Source: Longimicrobiaceae bacterium
GTDB lineage: Bacteria; Gemmatimonadota; Gemmatimonadetes; Longimicrobiales; Longimicrobiaceae
Reading direction: 5' to 3'
DNA: 64,000 nucleotides
Assembly (NCBI GenBank): GCA_036375715.1
Contig: DASVBS010000060.1
Location: 186,001 to 250,000 of the forward strand
Below the pieces are notes generated by a model that was not told the origin of the DNA, searched no databases, and saw only the letters and a program-made list of their open reading frames with translations. Positions 13,205 to 37,319 of the stretch are shown here, in pieces; the stretch's first letter is position 1; every line of letters starts with the position of its first letter. The position numbers were made by a program, and so were the translations under genes.

Positions 13205-13234
13205 GGGAGCCGGCGTCGGAGGGGGTTGCAGGAA

Positions 13235-13447
13235 AATTACGAATTACGAATTACTGGCCATTCTTATGTCGTCCGGAACGAGGAAGGATCCCGGCCGATC
13301 CCGTGCTTGTACGCGATCCTTCGTTTCGCTCAGAATGACAAAGTCGTGATCTGGGTGACAAGCCGTGACCTAGGCAACCAGGCCATAATTCAAAATTCAA
13401 AATTCATAATTCAAAATTCAGATCCCGCAATTCGTAATTCGTAATTC
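13235..13447. repeat. Nested inverted-repeat element A between hisA and ftsY
   Basis: The gap 13139-13452 holds no gene. Outer arms are AT-rich heptamer arrays: GAATTAC-type units at 13235-13254 and GTAATTC-type units at 13427-13447, inverted to each other. Inside is a second inverted pair, 13268-13290 and 13315-13340; the right copy carries TTCGCTCAGAATGACA and the left is a diverged reverse copy. From memory this resembles a dispersed GTCATCCTGAGCGAAGCGAA motif seen in many bacterial genomes. An AATTCAAA-type array lies at 13385-13420. The arms contrast sharply with the GC-rich surroundings. Confidence 0.8.
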
Positions 13448-13452
13448 GAGTC

Positions 13453-14385
13453 ATGTCCCGGCTATTCAAGAAGAAGGAAGAATCCAGGAAGTCGCTCTGG
13501 GAGCGGATCCGCGACGTCGCGCTCACCGATGTCACGGTGCTGGCGCGGGGGGGCGTCGACGAGGGGTCGCTGGAGCGCCTCGAGGAGCTACTGATCGCCG
13601 CCGACTTCGGGGTGGCGGCCACGCTGCGGCTGGTCGGTGCGGTCGAGACTCTTGCATCCAGGGGAGAAGCCCGGTCGCACCAGGAATTCCTCGACGCCGT
13701 GCGGCGCGAGATCATCGCCATTCTTTCGGCGGGTCGCGCCGACACCGCGCTGCGCTTCAACTTCGACGGCGGCCCGACGGTGATCCTCATTGCCGGGGTG
13801 AACGGTGTCGGCAAGACCACCACCATCGGCAAGCTGGCGTATCGCTTCAAGCAGCAGGGACGAAAGCCGCTCATCGCCGCGGGCGATACCTTCCGCGCGG
13901 GAGCGATCGACCAGCTGCAGCGATGGGCAGAGCGCGTCGGGTGCGACTTCGTCGGCAGCGAGCCGGGCAGGGATCCGGCCGCGGTGGCCTTCGACGCGGT
14001 GGACACCGCCATGGCTAACAACGCCGACATCGCCATCATCGACACCGCGGGGCGGCTGCACACCCAGCACGGCCTGATGCAGGAGCTCGAGAAGATCCAG
14101 CGCGTCATCGCCCGCAAGCTCCCCGGTGCTCCGCACGAGCGGCTGCTGGTGCTCGACTCGACCGTCGGCCAGAACGCCATGGCCCAGGTGCGGACCTTCG
14201 GCGAGTCGATCGACCTCACCGGCCTCATCCTCACCAAGATGGACAGCACTGCCAAGGGCGGCGTGGTCGTCGCCCTCAAAGAGGAGTTCGACCTCCCGGT
14301 GAAATTCATCGGCGTCGGCGAGGGCATCGACGATCTGGTGCCGTTCGACATCGAGGAGTTTGCGGAGGAAGTGCTCACGGCTTGA
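13453..14385 (+). CDS. ftsY: Signal recognition particle receptor FtsY
   Basis: FtsY is the SRP receptor GTPase that docks ribosome-SRP complexes at the membrane. The 310-residue protein has only a short basic N-terminus (MSRLFKKKEE) instead of the long acidic A domain of E. coli, then the four-helix N domain and the G domain. GTPase motifs are GVNGVGKTTTIGKLA (about residue 117), AGDTFRAGAIDQL, IIDTAGRLHTQHGLM, LTKMDSTAKGG and GVGEGIDDLVPFD. The gene is bracketed by heptamer elements on both sides, and the first heptamer of element B overlaps its TGA stop. Confidence 0.95.
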   Translation: MSRLFKKKEESRKSLWERIRDVALTDVTVLARGGVDEGSLERLEELLIAADFGVAATLRLVGAVETLASRGEARSHQEFLDAVRREIIAILSAGRADTALRFNFDGGPTVILIAGVNGVGKTTTIGKLAYRFKQQGRKPLIAAGDTFRAGAIDQLQRWAERVGCDFVGSEPGRDPAAVAFDAVDTAMANNADIAIIDTAGRLHTQHGLMQELEKIQRVIARKLPGAPHERLLVLDSTVGQNAMAQVRTFGESIDLTGLILTKMDSTAKGGVVVALKEEFDLPVKFIGVGEGIDDLVPFDIEEFAEEVLTA

Positions 14386-14550
14386 ATTACGAATTACGAA
14401 TTACGAATTACGAATTACGAAGATTTCGGGCGCCGCGGGAAACTCGTACTCGCAACGCAGGGTGATTGTCTTTACTGGCGGCTCCTTCCAAGGAAGGCGT
14501 CGAGCCTCGAACTCCGAGACCCGCCGTCTGTAATTCGTAATTCGTAATTT
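14384..14550. repeat. Inverted heptamer element B between ftsY and recG
   Basis: Five perfect tandem GAATTAC units at 14384-14418 start on the ftsY stop codon. Three inverted units (GTAATTC, GTAATTC, GTAATTT) lie at 14530-14550. The roughly 110-nt interior is GC-rich, has no gene and does not resemble the interiors of the other elements. The arms could pair into a 20-bp AT-rich stem. Confidence 0.85.
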
Positions 14551-18248: not shown

Positions 18249-18269
18249 CGCCGAGCACGCATTTTGTTT
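18232..18269 (+). terminator. Intrinsic terminator overlapping the stop of the Nramp-like gene
   Basis: A perfect 13-bp stem, GCGTGCTCGGCGC at 18232-18244 and GCGCCGAGCACGC at 18248-18260, with a 3-nt loop, is followed by ATTTTGTTT. The loop and the second arm contain the TAG stop (18246-18248), so the last four codons are part of the hairpin. Confidence 0.85.
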
Positions 18270-18386
18270 GAATTTTGTATTTTGAATTGAAGGGGGCGCC
18301 AGCCTCGCGGCTGGTATTACGAAATACGACCTAAGCAGAACGCTTCGCGCCTCCAATTCAAAATTCAAAATTCGAAATCCAAAATT
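18261..18386. repeat. Inverted AATTCAAA-type element C between two convergent operons
   Basis: The left arm, 18261-18289, is built from ATTTTGAATTG-like units; the right arm, 18354-18386, is built from CAATTCAAAATTC-like units. The arms are near-perfect inverted copies about 65 nt apart. The left arm supplies the T tract of the preceding terminator and the right arm abuts the stop codon of the small reverse-strand gene. The unit is the same octamer seen inside element A. Confidence 0.75.
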
Positions 18387-29475: not shown

Positions 29476-30588
29476 ATGAACCCCACGGGTGAACAGCTCC
29501 TGCGCCGTGTCGCAGCCGCCCTGACGCAGGTTCGCGATGCGCGCGGCGAGGACGTGGTCTCGACGGGTCGCGTTCGGGACCTCCAGGCCAGCGAAGACGG
29601 CATGGTGCGCTTCCGATTCGCCCTCCAGGCCGAGGATCCGGGCACGCTGGTCCGGTCGGCCAGGGCGGCGGCGGAGGCGGTCGAGGGTGTGCGGAAGGTG
29701 AAGATCGATGTGGCCCTTCCCGCCGCCGGAGGTCCGACGCGGCGCGGGCCGGCGGTTCCCAAGCCCGGCCTGAAGCCGGGGACGGTGCCCGCTCCGAAGC
29801 CGGCCGCGCGGCTACGCGCGAACTTCGATCGGGTGATCGCGGTCAGCTCGGGGAAGGGGGGTGTGGGCAAGAGCACGGTGGCCGTGAACCTGGCGGCGGC
29901 ACTCGGAGCGAACGGCCGCCGGGTTGGCCTCCTGGACGCCGACATCTACGGTCCCAACGTGCCCACCATGCTGGGTGAGCACCGTCGACCACGCGTCACC
30001 GGGAGCAAGGGGGCGGAGAAGATCGAGCCCCTGGAGGTACACGGCATCCGCATCATGAGCCTGGGACTGCTGCTGGAGGAGGCGCAGCCGGCCATCATGC
30101 GCGGTCCCATGATCTCCGGGATCCTGAAGCAGTTCCTGGAGCAGGTCGAGTGGGGAAAGCTGGATCTGCTGGTGGTCGACATGCCGCCCGGCACCGGCGA
30201 CGCGCAGCTCTCGCTGGCTCAGACGGTGGACGTCGACGGAGCCGTCATGGTGACCACACCGCAGGACGTCTCCACCGGCGACGTTCGCCGCGCCATCAAG
30301 ATGTTCGAGCGGGTGAACACGCCGGTGCTCGGTGTGGTGGAGAACATGGCGGGGTTCGTCTGTCCCTGCTGCGGCACTGAGTACGACCTCTTCGGGCGCG
30401 GCGGCGGCGAGGAGCTCGCGCGCGTCGCCGAGGTGCCGTTCCTCGGTCGGATTCCGCTCGAGATGGCGGTTCGCGAGGGGGGCGATACGGGCCACCCCAC
30501 CGTCCTCGCCTCGCCCGACTCCGCGGCCGGCAGGGCGCTGCGCGAGATTGCGGATCGGGTGGCGAGCGCGTTGGAAGCGCGGGGGTGA
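29476..30588 (+). CDS. mrp: Mrp/ApbC-type iron-sulfur cluster carrier ATPase
   Basis: Mrp is a deviant-Walker P-loop ATPase that delivers Fe-S clusters. The 370-residue protein has an N-terminal MIP18/DUF59 domain (about 1-85), a short Pro/Arg linker, and the ATPase: VSSGKGGVGKSTVAVNLA, LLDADIYGPNVPTMLG, VVDMPPGTGDAQLS and the cluster cysteines in GFVCPCCGTEYD. Start ATG 29476. Together with nfu it forms a local Fe-S group next to the iron operon. No partner is overlapping, and element D with a terminator follows. Confidence 0.93.
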   Translation: MNPTGEQLLRRVAAALTQVRDARGEDVVSTGRVRDLQASEDGMVRFRFALQAEDPGTLVRSARAAAEAVEGVRKVKIDVALPAAGGPTRRGPAVPKPGLKPGTVPAPKPAARLRANFDRVIAVSSGKGGVGKSTVAVNLAAALGANGRRVGLLDADIYGPNVPTMLGEHRRPRVTGSKGAEKIEPLEVHGIRIMSLGLLLEEAQPAIMRGPMISGILKQFLEQVEWGKLDLLVVDMPPGTGDAQLSLAQTVDVDGAVMVTTPQDVSTGDVRRAIKMFERVNTPVLGVVENMAGFVCPCCGTEYDLFGRGGGEELARVAEVPFLGRIPLEMAVREGGDTGHPTVLASPDSAAGRALREIADRVASALEARG

Positions 30589-30591
30589 GGC

Positions 30592-30820
30592 GGTATCGGT
30601 TATCGGTCATTATCGGTTATCCGTTATCCGTTATCCGCTCCGACGAGTGAGTCGGCTTCAATCCGCGAGAGTCGGACAGCAGGCGAATAGAAAAGGACTG
30701 GCCACTCCGGAGCGGTGACCGGTCCTTTTTCTTACTGGACTGTGCGTCGAGGCCAGATTGCAGGTCCGAACGGATAACCGACAACGGATAACGGATAACG
30801 AATAACGTACAACGGCTAAC
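30592..30820. repeat. Inverted GTTATCC/GGATAAC element D between convergent genes
   Basis: The left arm, 30592-30637, ends in three perfect GTTATCC units at 30616-30636 after diverged GTTATCG units. The right arm, 30771-30820, has GGATAAC at 30772, 30786 and 30793 with diverged copies around them. GTTATCC differs from the GTAATTC unit of elements A, B and E at two of seven bases, and the arm order is reversed. A terminator lies in the middle. The 238-nt gap has no gene. Confidence 0.8.
30691..30732. terminator. Bidirectional intrinsic terminator inside element D
   Basis: AAAAGGAC (30691-30698) pairs with GTCCTTTT (30722-30729), with a further near-complementary inner stem and a T5 run at 30726-30730. 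The 5' A run and 3' T run would terminate both mrp (forward) and the small membrane gene (reverse). Confidence 0.75.
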
Positions 30821-30826
30821 CCCCTC

Positions 30827-31066
30827 TCACTCCCCATCCAACCACTTCTGGTCCGACGCGCTGAGCCGGTGGTGGTGGCACCGGGAGCGGCCGACCAGCT
30901 TCAGCACGAGCCAGCCGACCACCAGGAGTGGGAGCACCTTGAACAGGAGGAAGGCAATACCCCCGAAGACCAGCGAGAAGACGAAGCCCAGCACCGTGAA
31001 GATCATCCACAGCGCGACGACCCCGACAAGGCCGATGGCCAGCAAGGTCAGAATTGCAGTCAGCAT
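30827..31066 (-). CDS. Small hydrophobic membrane protein, last gene of the sigma operon
   Basis: A 79-residue protein, almost entirely hydrophobic from residues 1 to 60 (two helices), with a short basic tail SRCHHHRLSASDQKWLDGE. No family is recognised. It lies 49 nt after the toast-rack gene on the same strand and probably ends the ECF sigma operon. The CHHH group could bind a metal, but this is only a suggestion. The ribosome site before ATG 31066 is weak, and no shorter alternative start keeps both helices. Confidence 0.6.
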   Translation of the reverse strand: MLTAILTLLAIGLVGVVALWMIFTVLGFVFSLVFGGIAFLLFKVLPLLVVGWLVLKLVGRSRCHHHRLSASDQKWLDGE

Positions 31067-37117: not shown

Positions 37118-37118
37118 C

Positions 37119-37268
37119 AATTACGAATTACGAATTACGACGTTGTGTACAGCTCGCGGTATCAATTGCTTCCCGAATTCGTGGAACAGAGCTGGCTCGC
37201 CAGGGTCACCTCGGAAGCACGAGCTTGAAGTTCCTAGCTCGTAATTCGTAATTCATAATTCGTAATTC
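37119..37268. repeat. Inverted heptamer element E between ubiD and ubiA
   Basis: The left arm, 37119-37138, is AATTAC plus two GAATTAC units, starting two bases after the ubiD stop. The right arm, 37241-37268, is GTAATTC, GTAATTC, ATAATTC, GTAATTC. The arms are inverted and about 100 nt apart. The interior is unrelated to the other elements and has no gene or clear terminator. The two flanking genes are co-directional. Confidence 0.85.
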
Positions 37269-37319
37269 GCAGTTCGCTGCGCCGGGCACGGCTTGAGAAG
37301 AACGCACGAAGGTTGAGGA

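Follow-up and report, generated by a model that had tools for sequence, protein, structure and literature searches.

The locus described here lies in a window of 64,000 nucleotides from a Longimicrobiaceae bacterium (contig DASVBS010000060.1, positions 186,001 to 250,000), in the gap between two convergent genes. At this position, a terminator-like hairpin is framed by two inverted arms of GTTATCC-type units spanning 229 nt (30592-30820; Table 1), an arrangement that the first-pass annotation had described correctly. The gene on the left presumably encodes an Mrp/ApbC-like P-loop ATPase, judging from its sequence, and relatives of the small ORF on the right were recognised by eye at the same place in other genomes. 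The left arm is imperfect towards its outer end and closes with three exact units on the inside. On the right, the inner edge of the interior reads GTTCGGACC inward from the arm and matches the inner motif of the family described below; no match to this motif was found at the left inner edge. The DNA fold of the entire stretch pairs both arms (z = -3.9; 1 of 200 shuffles equally good), and an Rfam search of the window matched no family.

Table 1. Coordinates of the features at the locus and of the sister elements in the window
Feature	Position	Strand	Remarks
Flanking gene, ORF	29476..30588	+	stop codon 30586-30588, 3 bp before left arm
Left arm, GTTATCC tandem units	30592..30637	+	three exact, outer ones variant
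Element interior, 131 bp	30638..30768	.	between the two arms
Terminator-like hairpin, A-run and T-run, bidirectional by sequence	30690..30730	.	sequence, fold
Right arm, inverse GGATAAC units	30769..30820	-	seven: three exact, four variant
Flanking small ORF, convergent	30827..31066	-	stop 6 bp after right arm
Sister element, GAATTAC/GTAATTC arms	13234..13448	.	ATTCAAA array inside
Sister element, GAATTAC/GTAATTC arms	14384..14550	.	left arm overlaps upstream stop codon
Sister element, TTTGAAT/ATTCAAA arms	18267..18386	.	
Sister element, GAATTAC/GTAATTC arms	37118..37277	.	

Preceded by an A-run and followed by a T-run, the GC-rich hairpin at the gene end fits a Rho-independent terminator in form and place. 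Its fold is not exceptional: the RNA of 30650-30740 reaches -32.0 kcal/mol, which shuffled sequences approach closely enough to leave z = -1.25, and the hairpin is absent from the output of a simple terminator scan. The "perfectly placed terminator" of the earlier description is right in form and position, and we keep to the wording terminator-like. In the relative G005, the same convergent pair carries GGGAACA arms around the GC-rich hairpin GGCCGGCATCC (L100 8180-8655), and in G003 a single arm of the word TAACCTG was seen by eye. Apart from these two, no arms were visible by eye at this locus in the eight relatives displayed. In the relatives that lack arms, other hairpins occupy this place (by eye). 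Given these and the single arm of G003, the terminator may predate the arms, which may have been added around an existing sequence.

A genome-wide family of inverted word pairs

In the own genome of the organism (G000; 4.37 Mb, 87 contigs, 95% complete), the GTTATCC doublet GTTATCCGTTATCCG has 82 forward and 91 reverse matches (overlapping, up to one mismatch) compared with 0 and 0 for the reversed control pattern, which excludes a chance origin. Exact 14-mers of GTAATTC reach 194 and 188 overlapping matches. Arrays were studied in a 476-kb sample of this genome, which includes the window and in which densities are biased because its stretches were partly picked for GTTATCC matches. Period 7 dominates this sample with 73 arrays, followed by periods 14 and 21 (40 and 17) and period 8 (13), and any other period accounts for at most 6 arrays. 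When clustered by word, 80 of the 86 arrays fall to four words. The family with sub-types that the first-pass annotation had proposed is supported as a genome-wide set, with the words GTTATCC, GTAATTC, CTAGCTT and ATTCAAA. The GTTATCC pair at the locus is also not a solitary case, as the sampled part of the genome holds 16 two-armed GTTATCC elements under a stricter rule and 22 under a looser one (23 rows, one element appearing twice). The kinship claimed between GTTATCC and GTAATTC was not supported: when all rotations and both strands are allowed, 16.5% of random heptamer pairs come within two mismatches of each other as well.

The arms are paired by word. Among neighbouring arrays of the sample, i.e. 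those closer than 450 bp, 28 of 34 form same-word inverted pairs, compared with a mean of 11.4 and a maximum of 23 in 10,000 trials of right-arm shuffling. The order of the arms is fixed for each word in all 28 same-word pairs, with GTTATCC (13/13), GAATTAC (12/12) and AAGCTAG (3/3) always on the left. What had been taken for a reversed arm order at our locus is simply the invariant order of its own word. Single arrays for which no partner was detected also occur.

Together, the gaps outside both arms amount to a median of 34 bp (20 elements; simple ORF caller), which places the arms right at the gene ends. Considering gaps of 40-600 bp, arrays occupy 27/127 co-directional, 10/46 convergent and 2/31 divergent gaps, and are rarer in the last type than in the other gaps (37/173). 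This placement, together with slots that are common to several species, speaks for hairpins kept by selection as signals for mRNA processing, stabilisation or insulation at gene ends, with their spread being secondary. However, an insertion process avoiding genes and promoters would yield the same placement, variants in the arms do not compensate each other and relatives lack arms in the same slots. We therefore regard selection for such mRNA signals as a rather unlikely main cause.

For the interiors, no difference in length was detected between 16 co-directional (95 bp) and 8 convergent elements (118.5 bp; P 0.24). Terminators did not emerge as a general feature of the interiors: a scan with strict criteria detected one in 1 of 24 elements, although the same scan overlooks the hairpin at 30690-30730. 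The claim that arms can sit around functional sequences looks justified at this locus and in the same slot of G005. One conserved cargo was likewise dismissed, as few copies have anything in common in their interiors. Several interiors have a block like GATCCTTCGCTTCGCTCAGGATGAC in common (window 13287-13339, L061 187-361, L066 19671-19769, L077 2761-2885), and some gaps in the genomes of relatives contain related blocks as well (G013, L274).

Copy number, variation within words and element ends

The number of units per arm peaks at four for 8 of the 11 words tested, with word lengths of 7 or 8 bp. Four copies are present in 21/43 arms of GTTATCC, 13/29 of GAATTAC and 5/10 each of AAGCTAG and AGGGATT. 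The same holds for 58/118 arms of AAGTGCT and 13/46 of AAGTGCC, and among the 8-bp words for 17/40 arms of AGTGCGTG and 18/37 of AGTGCGTT; within each of these two couples the arms overlap, and their peaks are not independent. No four-copy peak was found for GGGGAAT (two copies in 14 and four in 10 of 41 arms), AACGGGG (three copies in 5 and four in 3 of 16 arms) or TTTGAAT (tied copy numbers, 8 arms). As a control, of the 50 arms obtained with thirty random heptamers, 42 were doublets.

Xanthomonas arrays of GGGAATC-type words also have a mode of four, a number that a G-quadruplex requires, as the report on them notes (Rehm et al., 2015; PMC4692102), and four units might be kept here for the same structure. 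Against this, GTTATCC, GAATTAC/GTAATTC and AAGTGCT lack any run of three G, whichever strand is read, and nevertheless peak at four. This speaks against G-quadruplexes as a general cause, and the G-rich GGGGAAT peaks at two in our data. We consider an explanation by G-quadruplexes to be extremely improbable.

Variation within the words is specific to position. Among 599 units of the AAGTGCT type, 13, 1, 4 and 15 changes fall on positions 2, 3, 4 and 6, compared with 99, 112 and 147 on positions 1, 5 and 7. Nearly all variation of AGTGCGTG falls in its last two positions, that of GTTATCC mainly in positions 2 and 4, and that of GAATTAC in positions 1, 2, 6 and 7. Such a pattern could mean that some factor recognises the word, and a small number of founder words existing side by side would explain it equally well.

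The elements could be ordinary microsatellites. In that case, polymerase slippage would lengthen the heptamer runs on the spot, and one arm would be copied to the other by fold-back template switching, a process that is established for quasi-palindromes. The single arrays mentioned above favour such an origin, as do long one-sided expansions, for example seven GTTGTCC units in L068 and six GAATTAT units in L073. In contrast, slippage does not account well for a copy number that peaks at four in most words rather than falling off, or for the recurrence of one word at dispersed loci, where the order of its arms is constant and a motif lies on their inner side. Besides, no excess of point variants common to both arms was detected, either in 16 GTTATCC elements (1 versus 2.0 expected) or in 12 GAATTAC elements (3 versus 1.6 expected, P 0.18). 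The arms have the word in common and not its point variants; fold-back copying is therefore not seen to equalise them. Taken together, we judge slippage with fold-back copying to be an unlikely origin.

The repeated end of the GTTATCC elements is longer than the array itself, because a conserved motif lies on the inside and a preferred base on the outside. GGA[AC]C borders 12 of 42 GTTATCC arms directly on the inside, whereas 2,000 shuffles gave 1.2 on average and 6 at most; the figures are 2/42 further inward and 1/27 for GAATTAC arms. The base outside the GTTATCC arm is G in 32/42. Target-site duplications of the kind that marks DDE-type MITEs showed no excess over shuffles in 23 and 14 rows, with boundaries that are uncertain by some bases.

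The same slots in sister species, and GTTATCC in other organisms

Within the family, the GTAATTC 14-mer occurs in 0/20 relatives and the GTTATCC 14-mer in 1/20, as a single doublet, and several relatives carry other words (AAGTGCT, AGTGCGTG, GGGGAAT, CGATAGC and CGATAAC). One comparison comes from the slot behind a gene that we take to be sigma-factor-like from its sequence. There, the left arm of G013 is built of AAGTGCT and the right arm mostly of AAGTCCT, so that two arms of the same element may be about one base apart, and G012 has the 8-bp words AGTGCGTG/AGTGCGTT on both arms (both by eye). The flanks of these two genomes are about 96% identical and the words differ on both arms. Inspection by eye of the same slot revealed a degenerate AGTGCC type in G009, AGTGCCT and AGTGCTG in G010 and AGTCC types on both arms in G011, and no element in G014, G015, G001 and G000. 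Both arms have also changed in a second slot, with GGGGAAT in G012 and G013 versus GGGGAAC in G009, and in the slot behind rplK, with AAGTGCT types in G013, G012 and G009 versus AAGTGCC in G016. Clear replacement of the word amounts to these three slots, and most two-armed comparisons keep the same word in both species.

In 27 one-way comparisons among G009, G012, G013 and G016, the flanks are 93% and the element stretches 63% identical (medians), a set that includes at least two query stretches that are not two-armed and several targets with fewer than two arrays. With these requirements tightened to at least two arrays per genome (17 comparisons, 10 dropped), the medians are 95% and 67%. Clean empty sites were found in 2 of 50 comparisons, both directions counted: one element of G013 is missing from G016 and another from G009. 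In the own genome, elements flank rplK on both sides (the gene names nusG, rplK and rplA are our assignments from reading the sequence), and the alignment of the rplK-rplA gaps of 10 genomes was too poor to place junctions. Two further observations concern the slots and their elements. One slot holds an AAGTGCT element in G012 and G009 and an unrelated CACAGAG-type palindrome in G013 (L301 9833-9905 versus L279). Some AAGTGCT elements have a one-sided array of the 8-bp word nested in their middle (L306 18172-18274, L115 10013-10106).

Beyond the family, two of the 395 genomes examined from the phylum contain (GTTATCC)3, one of them being the own genome, and the matches listed include records of many other phyla. 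Of 80 listed loci from other organisms, six are GTTATCC pairs, all with GTTATCC on the left, in Chryseolinea, Saprospiraceae and Cloacimonadota; the remaining loci gave no GTTATCC pair at the threshold used. Several arms in Chryseolinea adjoin stop or start codons (by eye). GTTATCC is also found in five stretches of virus-labelled contigs, in which no GTTATCC partner arm was detected. The virus-labelled contigs of L366, L368 and L369 contain several different heptamer arrays each and may be host DNA. In the same-class genome G036 (L359 1456-1673) the words are layered, with an outer GCTGCCC and an inner GTTATCC on one side and inverse variants on the other. In Aeromonas eucrenophila, a long one-sided run passes from GGATAAC to GGATAGC units (L188 from about 6110).

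Relation to known repeats and a possible origin

Heptanucleotide tandem units, some of them in hairpins, are familiar from the cyanobacterial STRR heptamers and the heptamer stems of tRNA-Leu introns. The closest counterparts of our elements are the heptamer arrays of Xanthomonas and Nostoc (GGGAATC, GGGGA(C/T)T), with 70 and 75 convergent inverted two-site cases reported in two Xanthomonas species (Rehm et al., 2015; PMC4692102). Both sets have dispersed, intergenic units of 7 bp close to ORFs and rare between divergent ORFs, with a mode of four, and in both the gene neighbours mostly stay the same although the sequences vary. Convergent inverted intergenic pairs, and for most of our words the preference for four units, thus agree. 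The Xanthomonas words, however, are G-rich and were studied as G-quadruplexes, whereas several words here are free of G-runs, 8-bp words exist as well, and in some slots the words differ on both arms between sister species. The TAACTGA repeats of Beggiatoaceae, Cyanobacteria and Bacteroidetes are likewise low-copy intergenic tandem repeats of 7 bp (MacGregor, 2015; PMC4679880). They are reported to be direct repeats mostly before start codons, with one inverted case, whereas our arrays are inverted pairs at both gene ends. Rotated units of TAACTGA, here AACTGAT, lie within or beside GTTATCC arrays (L071 2855-2876, beside an arm; L076 6365-6391).

With REP, BIME and REPIN sequences (PMC3116915; PMC2817692), the elements share extragenic palindromes, inverted pairs, many copies and a variable middle, and two inverted copies around a variable spacer are indeed what we find. 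REPIN-type elements are moved by a REP-associated tyrosine transposase (RAYT), and its Y1_Tnp domain is present in 13 of 21 family genomes. Unlike those elements, the arms here consist of tandem words instead of one imperfect palindrome. Besides, a search for Y1_Tnp (PF01797) gave no match in G000 (95% complete), nor in the drafts G005 and G009, which do carry arms, so that movement by a RAYT appears highly improbable.

As the best explanation, which we hold tentatively and at slightly below an even chance, the locus would belong to a set of dispersed intergenic palindromes with two arms, which arrive whole, drift afterwards and are moved in trans. Such an element would resemble REP/BIME sequences in its architecture and would not be one of them. 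In its favour are the pairing and fixed order of the arms, the four-copy peak of most words, the position-specific variation, the inner motif of GTTATCC, the change of word on both arms in a few slots, the lower identity of element stretches than of their flanks, and the two empty sites. Each arm would be founded as a short run of about four units of a lineage-specific word of 7-8 bp in fixed orientation, and the two arms with their inner edges would enter a gap between genes together, after which each arm would drift and slip independently. An enzyme recognising the word, with about four oriented sites per end, would move the unit in trans. The element might be tolerated or even useful, as its hairpin lies just outside the coding sequence and could act on mRNA ends. 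Several findings count against this explanation, namely the missing signal of target duplication, the mostly unrelated interiors, the few empty sites, the possibly older terminator of this locus, the single arm in G003, the mostly constant word across species, the slight difference between the arms of G013 and the 3 of 11 words without a four-copy peak. Our confidence in this explanation and in the more general class considered next is also tempered by the fact that clear replacement amounts to three slots.

A more general class, indifferent to sequence, is possible but doubtful. In it, an activity would install about four oriented words of 7-8 nt at both ends of a short segment, the word of a lineage could give way to another on both arms of an element already in place, and the word would serve as the recognition code of an enzyme or a binding protein. 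If true, this code would consist of the constant core plus the variable positions of the word.

Inverted heptamer pairs are already in print for one word, the Xanthomonas GGGAATC (PMC4692102). A search of the open-licence PubMed Central literature, which is not proof of absence, found no paper on such pairs across words. New are the four-copy peak in words without G-runs, the 8-bp words and the word replacement at conserved slots. Earlier reports from distant bacteria took each heptamer word separately, and what is added here is an architecture that is independent of the word. Words without evident relation have inverted arms, a fixed order, for the most part a four-copy peak, a constant core and placement at gene ends in common, which points to a common process, and slots in which the word differs between sister species offer a concrete system in which to test it.
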